This document shows, in pieces, positions 14,450 through 29,868 of a stretch of DNA of 64,000 nt; the first letter of the stretch is position 1, and every line of letters starts with the position of its first letter. Origin of the DNA: Bradyrhizobium sp. AZCC 1721 (GTDB lineage: Bacteria; Pseudomonadota; Alphaproteobacteria; Rhizobiales; Xanthobacteraceae); contig NZ_JAZHSB010000001.1 of NCBI RefSeq assembly GCF_036924715.1, positions 1,293,001 through 1,357,000 on the forward strand, in the 5' to 3' direction. A model generated the notes under the pieces. That model did no database searches. It saw nothing but the letters and a program-made list of their open reading frames with translations, and had not been told where the DNA came from. The translations under genes were made by a program, and so were the position numbers.

Positions 14450-15922
14450 TTAGCCCGGTCCCGCGGCACGGCGCGCCAACGCGGCATTGCCGGTCGCGCG
14501 CATCGGGGGCTCCGCGGCCTGGCTGGCCATGGGGACGGGGTTGCTGGGGCCATTGGGGCTGCCGGATTCCTTGTTCGCTGTCGCCCCGCCGGTAGCAGAT
14601 GCCCCCTCGGGCCGCAACGGCCGCGGCGGTGCAAACAGAAAGCCCTGTCCAAACCGCACGTCATAGTCGAGCAGGTCCACCACCGCGCGCTCGCCCTCGA
14701 TCTTCTCGGCGATCAGGTCGATGCCGAAACGGCCGAGCAGGTCGGAAAGATCGGAAGGGTGGATGTCCGAGGTCGAGCTCTGCTTGGGATCGAGCAGCAA
14801 TGCCGCGGGCACCTTGATGAAACGGACGCCGCGATCGGCGAGGTCGCGCGGCTCGATCCGCAAGTCGGTGACATGGTCGATCGAGAAACGATAACCACGC
14901 TGCGACAGCGCGGCCAGATTCTCGATTTCGGTCGGGCGGAGATTGCGGAACGTCGCCTGCTTGAACTCGAGCACGAAGGAGGGCGCCAGCGCCCGATTGG
15001 CCTCGAGGAAGTCGAGGCATTGCGCGAAATTGGCGGCATTGCCGAGCGTCGCCGCAGAGACGTTGCAGAACACGCCGACGTCCTTGTTGCGCACCATCAG
15101 GCGGCGCAGCACCTGGATACAGCGCAGCATCACCATGTGATCGATTTTGCCGATCAACCCGCCGGCTTCGGCGGTGGGGATGAAATCATCGGCGGCGAGG
15201 ATCTGATCCCTGTCGTCGCGCAGCCGCGTCACCGCCTCGTAGAAGCGCACCTTGCGCTGCGGCAGCGTCACCATCGGCTGCAGGTAGATGTCGAGCCGGT
15301 TTTCCTCGACGGCGTTCTTCACCGCGGCGAGCAGTTGCGGCTGGTTGCGCGAGGGCGGAGCGGCTTCCGCGGCAGTTGCAGCCGCTGCCGGCCTTGCGGC
15401 AGCAGCCGGTGCGGGCCTGGCGACGATCGGCGCGGCTTGCTCCGCGGCGACCGCCGGTTCGCTCGGAGGTTCGGGATCCGGCCGGCCGGCCGGGGCGGGG
15501 GGCGCCGCCGCCGCGCCCGCGGCCAACAGATCCTCATGGCCCGCCACCGAGACGGCCAGTTGCTTGACCAGGACGCCGAGCTCGTTGATTTCGCCGACCA
15601 CCGCCTGGATGCGGTCGGAGCTTGCGGAATTCGCCGACACCAGGCGGCCCTCGACGGCGGCGAGCCGGCGGCCGAATTCGGCGACCTGACGGGCGAGGTC
15701 GGCGGTGCCACGGGAAAGATCGGCGATCTGGCCGCCGACATCCGAGCGGTCGCGCAACCGCATCGATACGGCGTTGTAAAGGATCAGGAAGGTCAGCGCG
15801 GTGAGCGCCACGATCGCGGATTCGGTGCCGTTGAAGCCCGCCACCGTATGCAGGACGAGGCCGAGCGAGGCTGCAACCAGCACCATGCAGATGGCGATGA
15901 AAATCGTCGAAATGCGAATCAT
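14450..15922 (-). CDS. Membrane-anchored EAL-domain protein, TipF-like
   Basis: A 490-residue protein: two membrane helices (about 5-25 and 32-52), a coiled coil (about 60-130), an Ala/Pro linker and a C-terminal EAL domain. This layout matches TipF, which binds c-di-GMP and positions the flagellum in Caulobacter. The EAL signature reads EAV, and the usual DDFG reads IDHVTD, so one metal-binding Asp is replaced by His; the Asn (FCNVSAAT), Glu (LEFKQ), Lys (FIKVP) and GQGFLF are kept. Binding without hydrolysis is therefore likely. The start at 15922 was chosen because the helix begins there; an extension to 16081 lacks similarity. Confidence 0.85.
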   Translation of the reverse strand: MIRISTIFIAICMVLVAASLGLVLHTVAGFNGTESAIVALTALTFLILYNAVSMRLRDRSDVGGQIADLSRGTADLARQVAEFGRRLAAVEGRLVSANSASSDRIQAVVGEINELGVLVKQLAVSVAGHEDLLAAGAAAAPPAPAGRPDPEPPSEPAVAAEQAAPIVARPAPAAAARPAAAATAAEAAPPSRNQPQLLAAVKNAVEENRLDIYLQPMVTLPQRKVRFYEAVTRLRDDRDQILAADDFIPTAEAGGLIGKIDHMVMLRCIQVLRRLMVRNKDVGVFCNVSAATLGNAANFAQCLDFLEANRALAPSFVLEFKQATFRNLRPTEIENLAALSQRGYRFSIDHVTDLRIEPRDLADRGVRFIKVPAALLLDPKQSSTSDIHPSDLSDLLGRFGIDLIAEKIEGERAVVDLLDYDVRFGQGFLFAPPRPLRPEGASATGGATANKESGSPNGPSNPVPMASQAAEPPMRATGNAALARRAAGPG

Positions 15923-19931: not shown

Positions 19932-20542
19932 CCCTCATCCTCCTTGATGAGGTGATGGATGCCGGCGCGGAAATAGTCCCAGCCGGTGTAGATCGTGAAG
20001 AGCGCCGACATCCACAACAGGACGATCCCGATCAGGGTGGTCGCAGGTAGGAGTTGCTCGCCCGCCTCGCCCGCGATCAGGAAGCCGATTGCGACCAACT
20101 GGATCGTGGTCTTCCATTTCGCCAGCTTGGTCACGGGTACGCTGACCCGCAACGCCGCGAGATATTCCCTCAAGCCCGAGACCAGGATCTCGCGGCACAG
20201 GATCACGATGGCGGCCCACAGGGTCCAGCCGTGGATGCTGCTATCGGCGGCCAGCATCAAGAGGCAGGACGCTACCAGGAGCTTGTCGGCGATCGGGTCG
20301 AGCATCCGGCCAAAGGCGGATTGCTGGTCCCAAATTCGCGCATAGTAGCCATCGAGGTAATCAGTCACGGCGGCGGCGAGAAAGACCGCCAGCGCTACCC
20401 AGCGCAGCCAGAGCGGGCCGTCCTGGATGGATTGGGCGAAAACGCAGCCGACCACCACCGGAATGGCGGCAATACGGGCGTAGGTTAGAATGTTCGGCAG
20501 GGACAGGGTCTTGGCCTGTCCCTTGGTTGTCGCGATGTTCAT
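19928..20542 (-). CDS. pgsA: CDP-diacylglycerol--glycerol-3-phosphate 3-phosphatidyltransferase
   Basis: A 204-residue membrane enzyme for the committed step of phosphatidylglycerol synthesis. The CDP-alcohol phosphotransferase motif is complete: DYLDGYYAR, then GRMLDPIADK. It has about five membrane helices. The start MNIATTKGQAK at 20542 fits the family; a longer frame to 20623 is unlikely. It lies between uvrC and moaD. Confidence 0.95.
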   Translation of the reverse strand: MNIATTKGQAKTLSLPNILTYARIAAIPVVVGCVFAQSIQDGPLWLRWVALAVFLAAAVTDYLDGYYARIWDQQSAFGRMLDPIADKLLVASCLLMLAADSSIHGWTLWAAIVILCREILVSGLREYLAALRVSVPVTKLAKWKTTIQLVAIGFLIAGEAGEQLLPATTLIGIVLLWMSALFTIYTGWDYFRAGIHHLIKEDEG

Positions 20543-20653
20543 CCGTCTTACCAATACCGCTGGAGCGTGAAGGTCAACCGTGCGGATGTAGATCATCTGT
20601 CGCAGGCGACGCCCAAATGACATGCCTCTCGACGCGAAGTCCCCTTAACCCGC

Positions 20654-22708
20654 CTATGCATGGAAAAACTCAAAGATCTTGCGGGCGCTCTCGGCGCTAA
20701 CGCCTGGAACCTTGCCGAGGTCCGCGATCGAGGCCCGCTCGATCTCCTTCAGTGTTCCGAAGTGGTGCAGCAAGGCACGTTTGCGTGACGGGCCGATGCC
20801 CGGGATTTCCTGCAAGCCCGCTTCCCGGATGTCCTTTTTCCGCAGTTTGCGGTGCGAGCCGATCACGAAGCGATGCGCCTCGTCGCGCAGCCGCTGGATG
20901 AAATACAGCACGGGATCGCGTGGTTCGAGCTTGATGGCTTCGCGGTCAGGCATGAACAGGGTCTCGCGCCCGGCATCGCGGTCCGGGCCTTTTGCCACGG
21001 CCATCAGGCAGACCTGCGTCAGTCCCAGACCCTGGAAAATTTCCCTGACGGCGTTGAGCTGGCCACGGCCGCCATCGATGATGACGAGGTCGGGCCATTG
21101 CGGAAACGAATCATCGTCGGCCTTGGCCGCATCGCCCTCCGGCGGCTTCAACAGCCGCTTGAAGCGCCGTTCCAGCACTTCGCGCATCATCGCGTAGTCG
21201 TCGCCGGGCGTCAGTCCCTCGGACTTGATGTTGAACTTGCGATACTGGTTTTTGATAAAGCCATCCGGTCCCGCCACGATCATTGCACCGACCGCGTTGG
21301 TGCCCTGGATGTGACTGTTGTCGTAGACCTCGATGCGCTTCGGCACCTGCGGCAGTCCTAATGTGCTCGCCATCGCTTCCAGGAGCCGGCCCTGGGTCGC
21401 GGTATCGGCGAGCTTGCGGCCGAGCGCCTCGCGCGCATTGGTCAGCGCATGCGTGACCAGTTCTTTTTTCTCGCCGCGCTTCGGCACCGAGATTTCGACT
21501 TTGTAGCCAGCCTTCACGCACAGGGCGTCGGCCAGCAGCGCGCACTCCTCGATCTCATGCGACAGCAAGATGAGTTTTGGTGGCGGCTTGTCGTCGTAGA
21601 ATTGTGCGAGGAACGAGGCCAAGACTTCCTGCGGCGTGAACGACTTTTCCGCGCGTGGAAAATAGGCGCGGTTGCCCCAGTTCTGGCCGGTGCGGAAGAA
21701 GAACACTTCGACGCAGGAATAGCCGCCTTCCTGATGGATGGCGAACACGTCGGCCTCTTCCACTGTGCGGGGATTGATGCCCTGCTGCGACTGGATCGCC
21801 GACAGCGCGGCGAGACGATCGCGATAGAGCGCCGCGGTCTCGAATTCGAGCTCGTTCGATGCCTTCTCCATCTCGGCTGCGAGCAGCTCCTTCACCGCAT
21901 GGCTGCGGCCGGACAGGAAATCGGTCGCCTCGCGCACCAGCTCGCCATAGCCGGGGAAGTCGATCTCACGGGTGCAGGGCCCGGAGCAGCGGCGGATCTG
22001 GTACAGCAGGCAGGGCCGCGTGCGGCTTTCGAAAAAGCCGTCGGTGCAGGAGCGGATCAGGAACGCGCGCTGCAGCGCCGTGATGGTGCGGTTGACGGCG
22101 CCGGCGGATGCGAACGGCCCGAAATATCGTCCGGGCCTGGTCTGGGCTCCGCGATGCTTGAGGATCTGCGGCGCCCAATGGTCGCCTGTGATCAGGATGT
22201 AGGGGAACGATTTGTCGTCGCGTAGCTGCACGTTGAAGCGTGGCCGTAGCTGCTTGATCAGGTTGGCTTCCAGCAGCAGCGCTTCGGTCTCGGTCGTGGT
22301 GGAAACGATCTCGACCGTGACGGTCGCCGCGATCATCCGAAGGATGCGCGCCGGCAAGGGCGCGTTGACGCGGGCGTAGGAGGCAAGCCGCTTGCGAACG
22401 TTTTTCGCCTTGCCGACGTACAGCACATCGCTGGCGGTATTGAGCATGCGGTAGACGCCGGGAGAGGTCGGTGCCAGCCGCACCGCGTTTTCGATGGCTG
22501 CGTGGCCGACCGCCAGCGGGCCTTCGGCAATCGCATCAGTGGGCTCCTCGGGGGCTTCCGGCAGGCGCGCCTCGTCGTCCTCCTCGGCGGCAGATGTCGC
22601 GGGATCGACGTCGGCGGCGGCAGTCAGGTCCTGGGGCGGCAAATCCGGCTGGGAACTCCGCCGCGCCTTGCGCGGGGGCTGCGGATGGTCGGTAGAATCG
22701 TGATCCAT
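20654..22708 (-). CDS. uvrC: UvrABC excinuclease subunit C
   Basis: A 684-residue nucleotide-excision-repair nuclease. Domains in order: an acidic, Pro-rich N-terminal extension of about 75 residues, the GIY-YIG nuclease ([19 protein letters not shown]), a cysteine cluster ([16 protein letters not shown]), the UVR motif, the RNase-H-like C-terminal nuclease ([10 protein letters not shown]) and tandem helix-hairpin-helix motifs at the end. The ATG at 22708 is retained because the acidic extension is common in the genus. Confidence 0.97.
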
Positions 22709-22816
22709 GGGCCTAAATTAAGCGCTGCAGGGCGGCATCGCCAGCGCTCGCGGCGCGCTCTTCGTGGAGACGCTGGTAACGCTTCCTTAAGACTGATGAG
22801 TGGGCGCTAACCCGGC

Positions 22817-22831
22817 TTAACAACCCTTTAA
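22817..22831. promoter_or_regulatory. CtrA-type binding site upstream of the porin-like gene
   Basis: A perfect TTAA-N7-TTAA (TTAACAACCCTTTAA) lies 99 bases before the ATG of the outer-membrane protein gene, and a third TTAA follows one base later. This is the full consensus for the alphaproteobacterial cell-cycle regulator CtrA. In sequence of this G+C content it is rare by chance. Confidence 0.65.
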
Positions 22832-22929
22832 CTTAAAACTCTCGATAAATCTTACCGGAAAAAGGTGGAGTTCCGTAACCAGGCCGGTTTCTCGCCGGCA
22901 GGGTCGCGGCAGTTGCGTGGAGTTGGGGG

Positions 22930-23556
22930 ATGAGCAGGCTTGTGTGGGGCGCGCTGGCGCTGATCGCTACCGGCTGGACCACGTCGGCGCGGGCGGCCGA
23001 CCTCTACGGATCGCGCCCGCCCTTGACAGTCAACCAGACGCAGTTCGGCCCCGATAGCTGGGCTGGCCCCTATCTCGGCGGCAACCTCGGCTATGCCTGG
23101 GGCTCGGTCGCGAACAATCCGACCAAGCCGTCCGGTTTCGTCGGCGGCGTTCAAGCCGGCTACAATTGGCAGAACGGCGGACCGTGGGTGTTCGGTCTCG
23201 AAGGCGACATCCAGGCGACCGGCGCCGAAGAAACCTTCGCGCCATGGAAATTTTCCAACCCTTGGTTCGGCACGATTCGCGGCCGCGCCGGCTACGCGTT
23301 CAACAACATCTTGTTCTTCGGCACCGGCGGTCTCGCCTTCGGCGAGCTGCGCGCTACTACCTTTGGCCTGACGGAATCTCATACCAATGTGGGCTGGACG
23401 CTCGGCGCCGGCGCCGAAGTGGGACTCGCGCCGAATTGGAGCGCCAAGATCGAATATCTCTATGTCGATCTGGCCAACAGCAACTTCGTTATTACGGGTG
23501 CGTCGAACGGTTACCGGTTCGGCCTGATACGGGCCGGCGTGAACTGGCACTTCTAA
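22930..23556 (+). CDS. Outer-membrane beta-barrel protein (Omp25/Omp31-like)
   Basis: A 208-residue exported protein; the signal peptide is cleaved near ARAADLYGS. It shows the family pattern WAGPYLGGNLGYAWG, repeated amphipathic strands with aromatic/Gly turns (GFVGGVQAGYNWQ, GTIRGRAGYAF, KIEYLYVDL) and ends in Phe, as outer-membrane barrels do. It is preceded by a CtrA-type site and followed by a terminator. Confidence 0.92.
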   Translation: MSRLVWGALALIATGWTTSARAADLYGSRPPLTVNQTQFGPDSWAGPYLGGNLGYAWGSVANNPTKPSGFVGGVQAGYNWQNGGPWVFGLEGDIQATGAEETFAPWKFSNPWFGTIRGRAGYAFNNILFFGTGGLAFGELRATTFGLTESHTNVGWTLGAGAEVGLAPNWSAKIEYLYVDLANSNFVITGASNGYRFGLIRAGVNWHF

Positions 23557-23581
23557 GAAAAGAAACTGGCGGCGACCACCT

Positions 23582-23612
23582 CCCGGCGGCAGTAAGTCGC
23601 CGGGATTTTTTT
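23582..23612 (+). terminator. Rho-independent terminator of the outer-membrane protein gene
   Basis: A CCCGGCG / CGCCGGG stem with a 9-base loop, followed after one A by seven T residues, 25 bases after the stop codon. Confidence 0.88.
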
Positions 23613-23719
23613 GCCTTCAGGCCGCGGGCATTGCAAATCTCCACGCTGTGGACGGCGACGCCATGCCCAGCGCAATCTTCGCAGCAAGAATTCAGTCCGC
23701 GTTCAACGTGAGCGTCAGC

Positions 23720-23935
23720 TCACGATGAAATCACCAGGTTGACCGCCTTGGGGCCTTTGCCCTTCTTATCCGGTTCGACCTCGAACGTAATGCGCTGCCC
23801 TTCAGTCAAATCCTTCAATCCGGCCCGCTCGACGGCGGTGATGTGCACGAACACATCGCGGCCGCCGTCATCGGGCTTGATGAAGCCGTAGCCGCGTTCT
23901 CCGTTGAAGAACTTGACTGTTCCAGTCATGGCCAT
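23720..23935 (-). CDS. Cold-shock-domain protein
   Basis: A 71-residue single CSD protein that binds single-stranded RNA or DNA. RNP1-like NGERGYGFIKPD and RNP2-like DVFVHITAV are present. Start chosen at ATG 23935 (MAMTGTVKFF); the second Met, at 23929, is also possible. The upstream in-frame sequence has no similarity to the family. Confidence 0.93.
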   Translation of the reverse strand: MAMTGTVKFFNGERGYGFIKPDDGGRDVFVHITAVERAGLKDLTEGQRITFEVEPDKKGKGPKAVNLVISS

Positions 23936-24197
23936 CGGGAAACTCCTCCCCCGTATTGCTCTGCCGTTACGCGCATCTCGCGCATCGGCCGACCGGACAT
24001 TCGCTGCCGGAAGCTTGGCCACCTGAGCTGATCGGATTCACGCCGCCGATCGACCCGGATTCTTATTCGGCCTTGATCACTCCGCCGCAACCATTCGCGG
24101 AAGCGGAACGTAAAGCCAGTCCCAACGGACTGAGCATAATACGGTTTCGCGTAAATTGCCTACGGCGATTCGCACTTTCCACCGGCCGCGCCGAGGC

Positions 24198-25058
24198 TCA
24201 CGGCTTGGGCGTTTCCAGCCTGAACCGGCCGGCCCCGCCCTGGCCGAGCGGTTTTTCTAGCTCGGGTAGAATTGTCTTCAACTCACCGGCCAGCGTCCAC
24301 GGCGGATTGACGATTAGGAGGCCGGTGGAGGCGAGGGGGCCGCCCGGCTCCTGCGGCGCAACGCTGAATTCAAGCCGCAGACATTTCCCGGCCGGCCTGC
24401 TGGCCGCGGCAGCGCTTGCGACGAGCCGTGCCAGCGTGTCGGTGGCGCGCCGGCTCTTCACGGGATACCAGATCAGATAGCTGCCGGTCGGCCACTTCGC
24501 GTAGGCTTCGGCGAATCCGCCGGCCAGCCGCTCGAATTCGTCTTGTTGCTCGAACGAGGGGTCGATCAGCACCAAGCCGCGCCGCTCGTTTGGAGGCACG
24601 AAGGCCGGCAACGCCGTCCAGCCGTCGAGATCGACCACCCGCGCCTGGCTGTCGCGGCGCAGCGCATCGATCAATTGCCTGCGGGCATTGGGCTCGATTT
24701 CACAGGCCGTGAGGCGGTCCTGCGGCCGCAGCAGAGCGCGGGCGATCAGGGGCGATCCCGGATAGGCCTCGAGCCGGCCCGGCGCATTGAATGCCCTGAT
24801 GATATCGAGATAGGGAGTCACCAGCGGCAGCGCGCTTTCCGAGAACCGCGCCTGCATTACCCGCGCAATGCCGGTCAGCCATTCGCGGCCGCGGCGCGCC
24901 TCCTCAGCCGTGAGATCATAGCGCCCGGCGCCGGCATGGGTGTCGATGACGCGAAACGGGGCCTGCTTTTCCTGCAGATAGGTCAGCATGCGTACCAACA
25001 CGATGTGCTTGATGACATCGGCAAAGCCGCCGGCGTGAAAGGCGTGTCGGTAGTTCAT
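24198..25058 (-). CDS. rlmJ: 23S rRNA (adenine-N6) methyltransferase RlmJ
   Basis: A 286-residue enzyme methylating A2030 of 23S rRNA. The family opening MNYRHAFHAGGFADVIKH fixes the start at 25058. SAM-binding IDTHAGAGRYDL is near residue 39. The catalytic motif, usually DPPY, reads DPSFE (VLIDPSFEQQDEF), a Ser replacing the second Pro. The substitution may be tolerated but is worth noting. The gene is divergent from the accessory patch that follows. Confidence 0.92.
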   Translation of the reverse strand: MNYRHAFHAGGFADVIKHIVLVRMLTYLQEKQAPFRVIDTHAGAGRYDLTAEEARRGREWLTGIARVMQARFSESALPLVTPYLDIIRAFNAPGRLEAYPGSPLIARALLRPQDRLTACEIEPNARRQLIDALRRDSQARVVDLDGWTALPAFVPPNERRGLVLIDPSFEQQDEFERLAGGFAEAYAKWPTGSYLIWYPVKSRRATDTLARLVASAAAASRPAGKCLRLEFSVAPQEPGGPLASTGLLIVNPPWTLAGELKTILPELEKPLGQGGAGRFRLETPKP

Positions 25059-25116
25059 GGCAATCGGCCGACCAATTGAGAAGACGTATTGTCTTCTACT
25101 CGTCGGGGCCGGGCTT

Positions 25117-25151
25117 GTCCTGCTTCGCGAAACGCTTCGGAGGACCAGGGC
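25117..25151 (+). repeat. Left copy of a short direct repeat flanking the accessory patch
   Basis: The 19 bases GTCCTGCTTCGCGAAACGC occur here at 25117-25135 and again at 27277-27295, same orientation. The next bases are also similar (TTCGGAGGACCAGGG here, CTCAGGATCAGGG there). The interval is about 2.16 kb and holds the ArsR cassette. Confidence 0.6.
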
Positions 25152-25166
25152 TCCGGCGTGCCTCCG

Positions 25167-25355
25167 ATGAGCGAACGATGTGTTCACCTGATCGGCGCTG
25201 ACGCTGTCAGGTCCGCCGGCCACGCAATGCGATCCGCCGCTGATCGAATGCAGAGCGCGGCGGCGAACATGGAGCGCGCCTTCGAGAGCCACCAGCGCTT
25301 TCTCGAAGACTGGCTGAGCCGGTTCGAGCAAATCATGGAGCGGAAGAATGGCTAA
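25167..25355 (+). CDS. Small hypothetical protein, helical
   Basis: 62 residues from ATG 25167 ([18 protein letters not shown]). The sequence is predicted to be mostly amphipathic helix with heptad-like Ala/Met/Arg spacing and an acidic/aromatic end ([18 protein letters not shown]). Family not recognised. Its stop overlaps the next frame by 8 bases, suggesting coupled translation. It lies just inside the left repeat. Confidence 0.5.
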
Positions 25356-25650
25356 GACGTTGACCAAACTGCAATTCAGCAATCCGCTGATGGCCACCCG
25401 CACCGAGGAGTCGTTCCACCTCAGCACGCTGCTCGACCTCGTCGGGAGGGACGGGTTCTTCGCCGGCAACGACCTGCTGGCGGTGTCGTCGTTCTACCCC
25501 GGCCTCGAGCTAGCCATCACGGGCGTGCACTGGTTCACCGGGCTGCCGCTGGTCGGCGCGCAGATCCTGATGGTTCTGCTGGCGCAATCGTCATCTGACA
25601 AGACCCGCCTGATTTCTTCCGACTTGACGCATGCCGATATCGGCATATGA
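25348..25650 (+). CDS. Hypothetical protein, possibly truncated at the cassette junction
   Basis: 100 residues starting ATGGCTAAG, overlapping the upstream small gene by 8 bases. Residues 1-75 read as a plausible protein with a hydrophobic C-terminal half ([19 protein letters not shown]). The last 25 residues ([20 protein letters not shown]) are encoded by the promoter and operator of the arsR gene, so the native C-terminus may have been lost when the downstream cassette was joined. Family not recognised. Confidence 0.4.
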
Positions 25651-25651
25651 T
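25624..25651 (+). promoter_or_regulatory. Promoter with a 16-bp palindromic operator in its spacer (arsR cassette)
   Basis: A -35 box TTGACG (25624-25629) and a -10 box TATGAT (25646-25651) are separated by 16 bases. The perfect palindrome ATGCCGATATCGGCAT (25631-25646) fills nearly the whole spacer. Seven bases after the -10 box comes ATG 25659, so transcription probably starts at or just before the start codon, giving a leaderless mRNA. A repressor bound to the palindrome would block RNA polymerase directly, which fits ArsR autoregulation. Confidence 0.7.
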
Positions 25652-25658
25652 GGCGCCC

Positions 25659-26000
25659 ATGGCACGAGCAGCGACGACGTCGGACATCTTCAACGCGATC
25701 GCCGAGCCGCAGCGCCGGGAAATCCTGGTACTGCTGCGGATGGGTGAGCGGCCAGTGACCGAGTTGGCCCAGGAGCTGGGGATGACCCAGCCGGGGGCAT
25801 CCAAACACCTGCGGGTGCTCCGGGAGGTCGGGCTGGTCCGGGACCGCAAGGCAGGCAAGCAGCGCCTGTACGGCATTGACGCCCGCAAGCTGCGACCGGT
25901 CCATGAGTGGACTGGCGGGTTCGAGCGGTTCTGGAATGAGAGCTTTGACCGGCTGGACGCGTACGTGCAGGACCTCAAGCAGGCAAGGCAGAAGGAGTGA
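25659..26000 (+). CDS. ArsR-family winged-helix regulator
   Basis: 113 residues from ATG 25659. The winged helix reads IFNAIAEPQRREILVLL, VTELAQELGMTQPGASKHLRVL and DRKAGKQRLYGI. No Cys pair is present in the recognition helix, so it is not a classic metal sensor; this subgroup is usually linked to SRPBCC genes. The in-frame ATGs at 25647 and 25650 overlap the -10 box and are less likely starts. The next gene begins 3 bases after its stop. Codon choice resembles actinobacterial genes more than the neighbours (inference from reading). Confidence 0.9.
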   Translation: MARAATTSDIFNAIAEPQRREILVLLRMGERPVTELAQELGMTQPGASKHLRVLREVGLVRDRKAGKQRLYGIDARKLRPVHEWTGGFERFWNESFDRLDAYVQDLKQARQKE

Positions 26001-26003
26001 CCG

Positions 26004-26510
26004 ATGGCCGCGACAGGACGCGACGCGCGAGCGCAGTCAGCGACGGCCGACCGCGAGATCGTGATCTCCCGCGTCATCGATGGCCCGCGGGAACTGGTGT
26101 TCGAGGCATTCACCGAAGTCCGGCATCTGTCGCGATGGTGGGGACCGGAGGGATTCACCACCACCACGCGGGCGTTCGAGTTCCGCGTCGGCGGGGAGTG
26201 GGACTTCGTGATGCACGGACCGGACGGGACGGACTACCAGGAGTGGATCTCCTGGACCGAGATCGCCCCGCCGGAGCGGATCGCGATGCTGCATGGTGAG
26301 TCCCGCGGCGACCCGAACGCCTTTGAGTCGGTCCTCACGTTCGGGCCCGACGGCGCGGCGACCCGGATCGAGATGCGCACGGTGTTCCCCACCAAGGAGC
26401 TGCGCGACGAGGCGGTCGAGAAGTACCACGCGATCGAGGGCGGCCAGCAGACCCTGAGCAAACTGGCTGCCTACGTCACCGAGATCGTTCGAAAAGGAGT
26501 TGAGGACTGA
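26004..26510 (+). CDS. SRPBCC / AHSA1-type ligand-binding protein
   Basis: 168 residues with the START-like helix-grip fold signature of the AHSA1 family: VIDGPRELVFEAFTEVRHLS, RWWGPEGFTTTT and GGEWDFVMHGPDG, ending with a long C-terminal helix. Such proteins bind hydrophobic ligands; those next to ArsR regulators may sense or clear the inducer, but no ligand is known here. The gene ends in TGATGG, its stop overlapping the start of the next gene. Confidence 0.9.
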   Translation: MAATGRDARAQSATADREIVISRVIDGPRELVFEAFTEVRHLSRWWGPEGFTTTTRAFEFRVGGEWDFVMHGPDGTDYQEWISWTEIAPPERIAMLHGESRGDPNAFESVLTFGPDGAATRIEMRTVFPTKELRDEAVEKYHAIEGGQQTLSKLAAYVTEIVRKGVED

Positions 26511-27130
26511 TGGCCGGGAGGGTGTTCTTTAGCGTGTCGATGTCGCTGGACGGGTTCATCGCGCCCGAGTCCCTCGAGGATTTGATGGGGCAGCAGTGGA
26601 TGGAACTGCAGCAGTGGATGTTCCCGCAGCGGTTCATCCGGGAGAATCTGAACCTCGGCGAGGGCGGCGAGGAGGGGCGCGACAACGACATTGTGCGGGA
26701 GACGTTCGAGCGCACCGGCGCGAGCGTGATGGGCAAGCGCATGTTCGACGCCGGCGAGCAGGCTTGGCCGGAGGAGGCGCCGTTCCACACGCCGGTCTTC
26801 GTCGTGACGCACGAGAAGCGTGACCCCTGGGAGCGGCTGGGTGGGACCACCTTTCACTTCGTCAATGACGGCATCGAGTCCGCGCTCGATCAGGCTCGCG
26901 AGGCCGCCGGCGACCGAGACGTCCGTATCGCGGGCGGCGGCGCAACGATTCTGGAGTACGTGAACGCTGGCCTGATCGACGAGTTCTCGATCGCGCTCTC
27001 ACCCGTGCTGTTCGGCTCCGGAATCCGCCTGTTCGAGGGCGTGGACGCGGGCCGCGTGGCCCTGGAGCCGGTCCGCGCGGAGCCGACGCGGCGGGTGACC
27101 CACCTAACCTACGCAGTCCGGGAGCGGTAA
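26510..27130 (+). CDS. Dihydrofolate reductase-like protein (RibD C-terminal family)
   Basis: 206 residues. It opens GRVFFSVSMSLDGFIAPE, the typical start of the RibD-C/YyaP family, with NADPH-binding DVRIAGGGATILEYVNAGLIDE and LSPVLFGSGIRLFE near the C-terminus. It is likely an NAD(P)H-dependent reductase of unknown substrate, not a folate enzyme. It shares one base with the SRPBCC gene and ends the three-gene operon. Confidence 0.9.
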   Translation: MAGRVFFSVSMSLDGFIAPESLEDLMGQQWMELQQWMFPQRFIRENLNLGEGGEEGRDNDIVRETFERTGASVMGKRMFDAGEQAWPEEAPFHTPVFVVTHEKRDPWERLGGTTFHFVNDGIESALDQAREAAGDRDVRIAGGGATILEYVNAGLIDEFSIALSPVLFGSGIRLFEGVDAGRVALEPVRAEPTRRVTHLTYAVRER

Positions 27131-27459
27131 CTGTCTCGACCTCAGCGCTCCCCGCCGAGGTCAGCAGCGCGGTGAGGTCCTCGAAGCTCTGAGCGTCAGG
27201 AAGGGCGAGCGTTCGGGCTGCGATCTCGGCCTGAAAACCCGGCGAAGCCTTGGCGAAGACGGGATGGCGAAGACGGGTCCTGCTTCGCGAAACGCCTCAG
27301 GATCAGGGCCAAAATGTCGGCGACGTTTTGCTGCAGATAGGTCCCGGCCATCCACGTGTCTTGCAGATGACGATAAGCCGTGGATGACCGGGAACGCAGA
27401 CAACTCTAGGCAGTCTGCGCAAAGCGGCCGCCATGCCTGGCATGGCGGTAAGCGGGTCT
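27131..27459. other. Intergenic region with the right repeat copy and a decayed palindromic repeat
   Basis: A 329-base gap between convergent genes. It contains a short tandem (GGCGAAGACGGG twice, about 27252-27277), the right copy of the 19-base direct repeat (27277), and at 27330-27425 a degenerate palindrome (CGCAGACAA...GCAGTCTGCGCA) related to the repeat at 35.8 kb. No gene is seen. Confidence 0.6.
27277..27310 (+). repeat. Right copy of the short direct repeat flanking the accessory patch
   Basis: GTCCTGCTTCGCGAAACGC, identical over 19 bases to 25117-25135, then a diverged continuation. It may be a recombination or attachment site, or two copies of a dispersed genomic repeat. Confidence 0.6.
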
Positions 27460-28143
27460 TCAGCCGCCCCGTACCGGCGGCATCACCACCTCGTCACGCC
27501 GGCAGGCGCGGCGGTCGATTTCGTCGCAGGCGCGGAATTCCATGTCCTTGCTCAGGCAGACCCGCACCTCGCTCAGGCGCCGGCTCGAGCAGGTCACCGA
27601 AATCGCCGAACTGCTCAAGCCCGGGTTGATCTTGATAAAGGCCTCCTCGACATCGCCGGGGGCGATGGTCTTCTGCTCCGGCAATTGCAGGAATTCCTCG
27701 GGAATCTTTACCGCCGCGCGCGCCTTCCGGATGCTCTCGAAATAGGCTCGCGCGCCAAGGCCCGAACAGGTGCCGTGCTTGTCCCACTCGTTGAAGATCA
27801 GGCCGGGCGCCGGCATCAGGTCCAGCATCGAGGTCATGATGTTGCGATCGAGCCGCGGCGAGGGCCGCTGGCAATATTCGGGAAAGCCGCGCTCATATTG
27901 CGGCCACAGGCCGTGAACCACGAAGGAATAGGGGCGGCTGCACTGGGCCTGTGATCGCCCGCTATTGCCGCGCTCAGCCGCCGCCTCGCAGAAGGAGGGC
28001 GACCAGGAAAGAGCCAGGACATAAAAATCGAATTCGCCTGGCGCGTTCTGCCGGCGGTCTTGTGCGGACGCTGTCCCGGCCAGGACGACAACAAGAGCCA
28101 GCGAAATCAGAAGCCGCGAAATAATGATGGACCCGTGCATCAA
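27460..28143 (-). CDS. Ribonuclease T2 family protein, secreted
   Basis: 227 residues with a signal peptide (cleavage near TASAQD). Both RNase T2 active-site segments are present: CAS I FVVHGLWPQ and CAS II NEWDKHGTC, with their catalytic His residues, so it should be an active endoribonuclease making 3' nucleotides in the periplasm or outside. Several Cys residues could form disulfides. It stands alone after the accessory patch. Confidence 0.94.
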   Translation of the reverse strand: MMHGSIIISRLLISLALVVVLAGTASAQDRRQNAPGEFDFYVLALSWSPSFCEAAAERGNSGRSQAQCSRPYSFVVHGLWPQYERGFPEYCQRPSPRLDRNIMTSMLDLMPAPGLIFNEWDKHGTCSGLGARAYFESIRKARAAVKIPEEFLQLPEQKTIAPGDVEEAFIKINPGLSSSAISVTCSSRRLSEVRVCLSKDMEFRACDEIDRRACRRDEVVMPPVRGG

Positions 28144-28264
28144 ACGCCCCCTCTACTCGACTACCGGGAGCCTAGCAGGGAGTCGGAACATTTCAAGAAC
28201 AAAATTGGATCAATCCCACAATCGGCCCGAGTCAGCCGGGATCGCTTGCCGGATTTCAGGGCGA

Positions 28265-28726
28265 TCAGGGCCGCGCGGCCCTGCAGCCGGGGCTGTAGGC
28301 CCAGTTGCGGTCAAGCCCGGTCACGCACCATTCGACGCCCTGGCCGAAGCCGGCAAAGCCGCCATCCTCGATGATCGAGTAGTGCACGGTGCGCATCTTG
28401 CCGTCGCTCAGCATCACGTCACCGCTGCAGTAGCGGCGCGGAATGTTGTCGGACTGCCATGGCCGAAAGGCGGTTTCATGGATCCGGCTGTAACCGGTAA
28501 TCGTCAGCGCCGAATTCCAGAACTTGCTCTCTTTCTCCTGGAACTGGTACGCGATCGTCGATAGCGCCCGCTCGCATTCGGCGACGCGGCCGTCATAGCG
28601 TGGGCCGAACAACCCGAAATTGAGCTCCATGGGGTTGGCGGCCTGCGCGGCCTGGCTGGAGACCAACAAAGCGAGCGCCGCTGCCGTCAGGCCGAGTGCT
28701 CTCAAGGATGTGAACAAATTGCGCAT
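28265..28726 (-). CDS. Exported hypothetical protein
   Basis: 153 residues from ATG 28726, with a signal peptide ending near AAQA. The mature part has four Cys (ECERAL, YCSGDV, EWCVTG, PGCRAARP), suggesting two disulfides, and a lysozyme-size Trp/Tyr-rich body. No family recognised. It is divergent from the next small exported gene, 164 bases away. Confidence 0.8.
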   Translation of the reverse strand: MRNLFTSLRALGLTAAALALLVSSQAAQAANPMELNFGLFGPRYDGRVAECERALSTIAYQFQEKESKFWNSALTITGYSRIHETAFRPWQSDNIPRRYCSGDVMLSDGKMRTVHYSIIEDGGFAGFGQGVEWCVTGLDRNWAYSPGCRAARP

Positions 28727-28890
28727 GGGAATCCGCCGGTAAGCCAACGCATGGACGGTGCCGCGAAGCCCTGACAAGGTCAAGTGCAGCGCGGCAACAC
28801 CTGACAGCCAAGTCCGCCTCGTGCCGCAAGCATTCTTTTCACGGCCATCGGTGCACACTATGGTGCGGTTCGAGCGAAATGGAGTCTGCG

Positions 28891-29187
28891 ATGCGAAGAA
28901 TTGTGGCCGCGAGCCTGATTGCCATGGGTGGAATGCTGGCCTGCCCGCCGGCGCAAGCAGACCTGGACCGGGTGCCACCGTTCAAGGGCAACGACACCGG
29001 CGGCATCATCGCCTATCCGCTCGCGATGCAGGCTGACGCCCGCCAGCTCGCCGTCGATCACTGCGCCCGCTACGGCAAGGTGGTGAAATTCCTCGGCGTG
29101 CAGCCCAATTACGGCGGCTACGTTTCCTTTGCCTGCCGCTGGGTGCCCTATGGCGCCGCTGAGCGGCCGCTGCGCACGCTTTACTGA
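28891..29187 (+). CDS. Small exported hypothetical protein
   Basis: 98 residues from ATG 28891 (MRRIVAASLIAMGG), signal peptide ending near AQA. The mature protein of about 75 residues has two Cys (HCARYG, FACRW) and ends in LRTLY. It is of a kind widespread in Bradyrhizobium but without an assigned function. An upstream ATG at 28879 is also in frame. Confidence 0.75.
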   Translation: MRRIVAASLIAMGGMLACPPAQADLDRVPPFKGNDTGGIIAYPLAMQADARQLAVDHCARYGKVVKFLGVQPNYGGYVSFACRWVPYGAAERPLRTLY

Positions 29188-29293
29188 GCGCTGCCGCTAC
29201 CTGTTTTCCGGCTGGACATGTTTTCGCCACGCGGAGCGTGTGTTCACTTCGCGCGAAGACGAGTGCCATGGAAGAATTCAGCGGGGCCCACCC

Positions 29294-29830
29294 ATGAGAC
29301 GACTGCTTCTTGTATCTTGTTCGGCCGTTGGTGTGCTTGCTCTGTTGCCGGCAAGCGGCGCTATCGCCGTGGAGTTGCCGGTGCGCAAGGCCGGCCTGTG
29401 GGAGATGAAAGTGGTGAGCACGGGCTCGCCGTCATCCGAGATGACGATGCACCAATGCACCGACGAGACCACCGACAAGGGCATGAGCACCGCAATGTCG
29501 CCGTTGGCCAAGGAGATCTGCTCCAAGCAGGATATCCAGAAGACCGCAACCGGCTATGTCACGGATTCCGTCTGCGGCGTCGCCGGGATCACGGTCAAAT
29601 CCCGTGCCGAGATCACCGGCGACTTCAATTCCGCCTACACCGTAAAATCGACCTCGCAGAGTGAGGGCGGCATGGCCGGCGCCGCGCGCGACAACAGCTC
29701 GACGATCGAGGCCAAATGGGTCGGCGCCTGCAAGGCGGATCAGAAGCCAGGCGACATCATCATGCCCGGCGGCATGAAGATGAACATCAAGGACATGGAA
29801 AAGCTGAAGGCGCTGATTCCGAAGAAGTAG
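29294..29830 (+). CDS. DUF3617 family exported protein
   Basis: 178 residues; signal peptide to about residue 25 (GAIAVELPVRKAGLWEMK). The segment RKAGLWEMKVVSTG and the regular spacing of Cys residues (CTDETT, CSKQDI, CGVAG, CKADQKPGD) fit DUF3617, a periplasmic family of unknown role. A hairpin with a T-run follows at 29919. Confidence 0.85.
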   Translation: MRRLLLVSCSAVGVLALLPASGAIAVELPVRKAGLWEMKVVSTGSPSSEMTMHQCTDETTDKGMSTAMSPLAKEICSKQDIQKTATGYVTDSVCGVAGITVKSRAEITGDFNSAYTVKSTSQSEGGMAGAARDNSSTIEAKWVGACKADQKPGDIIMPGGMKMNIKDMEKLKALIPKK

Positions 29831-29868
29831 GGGAAGTAACGAGGTCGCAGAATCTATCGCGGCGAATT

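Follow-up and report, generated by a model that had tools for sequence, protein, structure and literature searches.

The operon at 25659-27130 of the 64,000-nucleotide stretch of Bradyrhizobium sp. AZCC 1721 DNA analyzed here (the window) consists of three co-directional genes behind one promoter, encoding in this order an ArsR-family protein, an SRPBCC protein and a RibD_C reductase. Our main reading, to which we assign a probability of roughly 0.6, is that this operon is a self-contained cassette obtained from an actinobacterium, which is autorepressed via a dyad in its promoter and induced by a non-metal signal, and whose SRPBCC protein and reductase act on the compound. The features are listed by their positions in the window.

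25153..27231, no strand: horizontally acquired insert of about 2.08 kb, from the empty-site alignment with the close relative G210
25587..25622, plus strand: upstream flank ATCGTCATCTGACAAGACCCGCCTGATT..., present in many actinobacterial copies and absent from others
25624..25651, plus strand: promoter TTGACG-N16-TATGAT (-35, 25624-25629; -10, 25646-25651)
25631..25646, no strand: predicted operator dyad ATGCCGATATCGGCAT, a perfect 16-bp palindrome with the family consensus ATNCCNATATNGGNAT
25659..26000, plus strand: gene 1, ArsR-family repressor, 113 aa (PF01022, 6e-14; NF033788, 2.5e-24)
25990..25997, plus strand: Shine-Dalgarno sequence AGAAGGAG of gene 2, by direct sequence reading
26004..26510, plus strand: gene 2, SRPBCC/AHSA1 helix-grip protein, 168 aa (PF08327, 6e-24)
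26492..26499, plus strand: Shine-Dalgarno sequence AAAAGGAG of gene 3, by direct sequence reading
26510..27130, plus strand: gene 3, NADPH-type reductase of the RibD_C or "dihydrofolate reductase" family, 206 aa (PF01872, 9e-15)
27138..27162, plus strand: possible weak terminator hairpin GACCTCAGCG/CGCCGAGGTC, with a conserved form in 12 of 80 loci

The promoter was the sole promoter-like match within 25000-27500 (10/12; mean of shuffles, 0.3). Its spacer is filled by the dyad ATGCCGATATCGGCAT, which overlaps the -10 by its final base (25646). The palindrome was rejected as significant on its own: the window contains 7 perfect 16-bp palindromes, where uniform base use would predict about 1, the six others being located at 15478, 23402, 28267, 33632, 36188, and 59070. 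What lies far beyond chance is that the dyad is conserved over 81 loci, has a symmetric information profile, and occurs about once per genome, at the cassette. Twelve of the 16 positions were near-invariant across the 81 sites and the variable positions 3, 6, 11, and 14 were mirror-symmetric, resulting in the consensus ATNCCNATATNGGNAT; all 12 fixed positions were matched in 66 loci and at least 11 in 79. The sites included perfect dyads that differ in sequence, namely ATGCCGATATCGGCAT, ATACCCATATGGGTAT, and TTTCCCATATGGGAAA, as well as ATTCCCATATGGGAAT in L155. No clear covariation was found between the paired positions 3/14 and 6/11 across the 81 loci (p 0.02 and 0.24; 0.18 and 0.53 with distinct sites only), suggesting that the half-sites tolerate mismatch; as the values were not significant on distinct sites, covariation was rejected as proof of the dyad. 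The -35 hexamer TTGACG was present in 62 and the -10 hexamer TATGAT in 69 of the 81 loci. Upstream of the ArsR gene, only the block from the -35 to the ATG was common to all loci and the outer DNA varied between many of them; the flank at 25587..25622 is either hitchhiking sequence or an auxiliary site.

The operator pattern ATNCCNATATNGGNAT occurs a single time in the 7.15-Mb host genome, at the ArsR-SRPBCC-reductase operon. In 14 of 15 other genomes it was found once or twice each, one site by coordinates always lying at the cassette, and sites beyond the cassette in these genomes numbered 3, compared to 2 for a reversed control pattern. As the operator occurs about once per genome, ArsR most likely has one target, its own promoter. 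The proposal in the earlier note of an operator palindrome in the promoter spacer is thus supported at the sequence level by conservation, symmetry, near-unique occurrence, and a fixed geometry relative to promoter and start.

The mechanically called open reading frame of gene 1 starts at 25647 (MMAP...), but relatives place the start at MARAATT (25659). Of the 81 loci, 76 have ATG and 5 have GTG at the position equivalent to 25659, and annotated plasmid copies share this start; we therefore regard 25659 as the ArsR start. This ATG follows 7 nt downstream of the -10, and the corresponding distance was 6 to 8 nt in the 77 loci scored, so a leaderless ArsR message is predicted. If transcription begins at the promoter at 25624-25651, there is no room for a Shine-Dalgarno sequence in front of gene 1. 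Genes 2 and 3 have Shine-Dalgarno sequences of the AAGGAG type; the junction of genes 1 and 2 is tight (TGA at 25998-26000, ATG at 26004), and genes 2 and 3 overlap by TGATG at 26508-26512. Autorepression and a leaderless start of the first gene are well-supported predictions, and the earlier suggestion of a leaderless start agrees with the conserved start position and its distance to the -10. The hairpin at 27138..27162 was rejected as a terminator, since its fold was no better than that of shuffled sequences (z -0.59), and no Rfam match to a regulatory RNA was found.

We scanned about 85,000 species genomes and found a reductase relative encoded at 416 loci. Of these 416, the 80 best were 85 to 97% identical and nearly all actinobacterial, and in nearly all of these 80 the order and spacing of the three genes were kept. 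The cassette proteins share 77 to 97% identity with their actinobacterial counterparts. Among 297 Actinomycetes, 25 carried the reductase, at 69 to 94% identity over the search alignment. The gene order was kept in 25 Actinomycetes loci with 64 to 94% reductase identity, and the operator was matched exactly in 22 of these 25 loci and nearly in the remaining 3. In Pseudomonadota, a reductase with more than 50% identity was present in 2 of 299 genomes, both Bradyrhizobium, and a cassette copy with 86 to 100% identity was present in 5 of 243 Bradyrhizobium genomes. UvrC served as a control: the window protein was 36 to 40% identical to that of the cassette-holding actinobacterial and Chloroflexota genomes and 86 to 97% identical to that of other Bradyrhizobium. 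At four-fold sites the identity between the cassette and actinobacterial copies reached 0.92, where base composition would give 0.38 by chance, and in a DNA tree with uneven deep support the Bradyrhizobium copies were nested among actinobacterial ones. An actinobacterial origin of the operon is strongly supported by these comparisons, in line with the donor named in the earlier note: actinobacterial matches dominate the protein search and the best relatives are not Bradyrhizobium throughout. This does not hold true for leaderlessness, which the note had also taken as a pointer to actinobacteria. In B. japonicum USDA 110, 320 transcription start sites lie 0 to 10 nt upstream of start codons, 192 of them exactly at the start codon (PMC4842269), although leaderless transcripts are far more frequent in M. 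smegmatis, with 24% (PMC6448022). Since leaderless messages also occur natively in Bradyrhizobium, this inference is weak; the donor assignment rests on the other evidence.

Copies were found on Streptomyces and Rhodococcus plasmids, in surroundings unlike each other and several with transposases or recombinases nearby; phage and viral collections contained no cassette copy. The dN/dS values of 0.09 to 0.32 against five close copies show purifying selection on each of the three genes. Reductase homologues with 40 to 50% identity in other genomes mostly lacked ArsR or SRPBCC partners nearby.

The nearest relative, G210 (UvrC 97% identical), has the same neighborhood without the insert. The sequences at window positions 20489-25152 and 27228-29832 adjoin each other in G210, with 25152 joining 27228-27232; G210 carries its own cassette about 2.9 Mb from its uvrC. 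The insert is likewise absent from this site in the Bradyrhizobium genomes G153, G190, and G064, which have cassettes elsewhere. As four other genomes carry copies elsewhere and have an empty site here, more than one acquisition by Bradyrhizobium is the simplest reading; later moves of the cassette within a genome are possible. Terminal inverted repeats are missing from the insert (25153-27231), its ends share no more than a 2-bp CT repeat, and none of its genes was recognized as transposase-like; it does not classify as a transposable element. Transposon, integron or phage cargo was rejected in view of the missing inverted repeats and the lack of phage or viral relatives. The left 430 bp (25153-25585) gave no plasmid or phage match and no second copy in the genome; the only partial matches were in L022 and L040, where they precede the operon.

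The assignment of the first protein to the ArsR/SmtB winged-helix family is clear (PF01022, HTH_5, 52.1 bits; gathering score, 22). The protein has no cysteine and only two histidines (H50 and H82), and cysteine is absent in 77 of 84 ArsR homologues. Neither a cysteine-based metal site of the ELCVCDL-like type nor the helix-5 His/Asp pattern was found in it, and it scored far under the cut-off of the equivalog metal-sensor models. The lack of cysteine agrees with the earlier statement that the metal-binding cysteine pair is missing and, with the lack of the helix-5 histidine pattern, disfavors a metal signal. Matches of ArsR to Csa3/CARF models derived from the winged helix alone and the other two proteins gave no such match, and a role in a defense system was rejected.

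The second protein belongs to the AHSA1/SRPBCC family (PF08327, 85 bits; gathering score, 22.1) and shows a helix-grip fold in the model (pLDDT 86). In a Foldseek search the best match was 1xuv (MM0500), and further fold matches included Ms6760 (3uid), to which it is also related by sequence (1.5e-7), and abscisic-acid receptors. Proteins with the helix-grip fold usually bind hydrophobic or aromatic ligands. In Bradyrhizobium G064 (L004, around 2108-2119) the SRPBCC gene is cleanly gone, and the reductase start directly follows the ArsR stop with the ribosome-binding site retained. As this strain lost the SRPBCC gene yet retains the other two, the protein may be dispensable there.

The third protein is a member of the RibD_C family (PF01872, 55.4 bits; gathering score, 24.1), and its homologues have an invariant GG at 142-143. 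The "DHFR" label used before is loose: the protein is not a true DHFR, as a Pfam search gave no PF00186 match up to an E value of 0.01. The closest solved relative is the Chloroflexus aurantiacus bifunctional deaminase-reductase domain protein (PDB 3KGY, E 2e-70), for which, to our knowledge, no reaction has been assigned. The AlphaFold model of the reductase (pLDDT 41) was not used.

The closest described counterpart is the M. tuberculosis unit Rv2034-Rv2035-Rv2036, also three co-expressed genes with ArsR first and an SRPBCC-type protein (polyketide_cyc2) second; Rv2034 is a proven autorepressor that binds a palindrome at its own start codon, as shown by footprint and gel shift (PMC3338718). 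The operon in the window likewise has a palindrome at its own promoter and start, here known from conserved sequence, and groups with this type in that respect. The Rv2034 operator is CCGTAAGT-N4-ACTTACGG beside the start codon, whereas that of the window operon is ATNCCNATATNGGNAT in the promoter spacer; the third gene, here for a RibD_C reductase, is a different one; and Rv2034 acts on further promoters, whereas the window ArsR appears to have a single target. By analogy, the operon would work like Rv2034-Rv2035, with which it shares the first two components, with a different operator sequence and third gene. The co-transcribed ArsR/SRPBCC pair MSMEG_6762-MSMEG_6760 of M. smegmatis is also similar, including the SRPBCC fold (3uid); for this pair no reductase was reported, and cell death occurred upon over-expression of the ArsR protein (PMC9416677). 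SdpR autorepressors (NF033789) share the ArsR fold and the logic of autorepression, but the window operon has no SdpI-like membrane partner and its ArsR reached 60.1 bits, under the cut-off of 100, and is no member of the SdpR family. A search of the open-licence literature, which misses most subscription journals, revealed no report on an ArsR-SRPBCC-RibD_C triad. The module was previously considered undescribed; within the literature searched this applies to the combination with RibD_C but not to autorepressed ArsR-SRPBCC pairs, which are known in mycobacteria (PMC3338718, PMC9416677).

Bradyrhizobium also has native loci (L009-L012, L016-L018, L020, and L021) with adjacent homologues of all three proteins, which share 39 to 42% (reductase), 41 to 43% (ArsR), and 30 to 33% (SRPBCC) identity with the window proteins. 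In these loci the reductase gene comes first, followed by ArsR-SRPBCC with a separate intergenic promoter, and TTAACC/GGTTA-type repeats (TTAACC/GGTTATTTAACC) instead of ATNCCNATATNGGNAT lie near the ArsR start, a putative operator of another type, the second for this set of genes. The occurrence of the three families in another order and with another promoter indicates that their association recurs.

In the proposed mechanism, an ArsR dimer would bind ATNCCNATATNGGNAT between the -35 and the -10 and block RNA polymerase, so that the operon would repress itself, with essentially no other target, in a negative-feedback loop. Transcription would begin at or beside the ATG at 25659, yielding ArsR from a leaderless message, and genes 2 and 3 would be translated via their Shine-Dalgarno sites. 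Release of the repressor would require a non-metal signal; small compounds, organic or redox-active, and metabolites are the probable candidates. Judged from their families, the SRPBCC protein may bind or convert the inducing compound and the RibD_C reductase may reduce it or its product with NADPH. Our best guess is that the unit is inducible and that it binds and reduces a small compound, toxic or signaling in nature, with detoxification as a possible role. Arguments against this mechanism are the missing covariation of the variable operator pairs, the loss of SRPBCC in G064, the lack of partners near most reductase homologues with 40 to 50% identity, and the fact that no neighboring gene hints at the compound. 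More speculatively, and rather unlikely in our view, the operon may represent a mobile class in which an ArsR-SRPBCC two-protein chemical sensor is combined with interchangeable enzymes, here RibD_C, and spreads between phyla as a complete unit. The SRPBCC protein would then capture or process the ligand to which ArsR responds, and the unit would bring its own promoter and operator, with a leaderless repressor requiring no ribosome-binding site.

An unlikely alternative, drawn by analogy, is a toxin-antitoxin-like selfish module in which ArsR and SRPBCC form a regulator/toxin pair, the reductase is a passenger, and spread is due to maintenance. Such a pairing was proposed earlier for both Rv2034-Rv2035 and MSMEG_6762-6760, the window SRPBCC protein resembles Ms6760 in sequence and fold, and Ms6760, co-transcribed with its ArsR, is a predicted toxin; over-expression, however, was non-toxic for the SRPBCC protein and toxic for ArsR (PMC9416677). 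The mobility of the cassette and its presence on plasmids fit such a module, which would account for autorepression and for spread without a useful reaction, but G064 retains ArsR and reductase without SRPBCC, and the reductase is as conserved as the other genes. Some RibD_C proteins, for example M. tuberculosis Rv2671, can substitute for DHFR. A backup of the folate pathway, in which the reductase provides DHFR or RibD activity, confers tolerance to antifolates, and is induced by these or by folates, would be compatible with the RibD_C family membership; we regard it as quite improbable, since the PF00186 match is missing, TIGR01508 gave just 20.7 bits (cut-off, 186), the best solved relative has no assigned reaction, and we know of no tie of the ArsR/SRPBCC pair to folate.

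The match to NF033788, a "metalloregulator" subfamily of NCBIfam, would agree with a sensor for a metal or metalloid with a non-cysteine site. This is very unlikely, given the rarity of cysteine among the homologues, two histidines that lie outside the helix-5 pattern of CzrA-type sensors, the low scores with the equivalog models, and an operon without a transporter. Least credible, to the point of being negligible, is a native, vertically inherited Bradyrhizobium operon with a coincidental palindrome. Perfect 16-bp palindromes are indeed not rare in the window, but the operator is conserved across loci, and the few close copies in Bradyrhizobium lie at other chromosomal sites and are nested among actinobacterial sequences; vertical origin was rejected by the empty site in G210 and the UvrC control.

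The cassette of actinobacterial origin thus unites three genes that recur together, behind a promoter/operator that hardly varies, across many actinobacterial families and on Streptomyces and Rhodococcus plasmids, with probably more than one entry into Bradyrhizobium. Given this wide recurrence and the probable repeated entry, something in soil presumably favors the genes by selection. Because there is one operator and it is exactly defined, the unit can serve directly as a reporter in screens for the inducer. The operon could reveal which non-metal ligand an ArsR protein binds and which reaction is catalyzed by a RibD_C reductase group for which a structure has been solved.

Several minor observations concern individual copies and the borders of the insert. 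On the Rhodococcus plasmid pDK3 (L107, 5028-6001), about 120 extra bases compared to other copies separate ArsR and reductase, and the listed annotation, which is incomplete, contains no SRPBCC gene. Two short open frames in or beside the left part of the insert, 25348-25650 and 25089-25355, gave no Pfam or NCBIfam match; the former gave no plasmid match and the latter no phage match. A 42-bp stretch (25375-25416) is also present in Nonomuraea cypriaca (L040), where it lies immediately in front of the operon. The right end of the insert (27131-27231) is common to L022-L024 and L075 and resembles, on the minus strand, the 3′ part of a convergent gene that the junction truncates. The sequence GTCCTGCTTCGCGAAACGC(T/C)TC is found on both sides of the insert (25117-25138 and 27277-27298) and may be a genus repeat family; as similar sequence flanks the empty site in G210, it predates the insertion. 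Beside the insertion junction, at 27251-27277, TGGCGAAGACGGGA is tandemly duplicated, with a single copy in G210.
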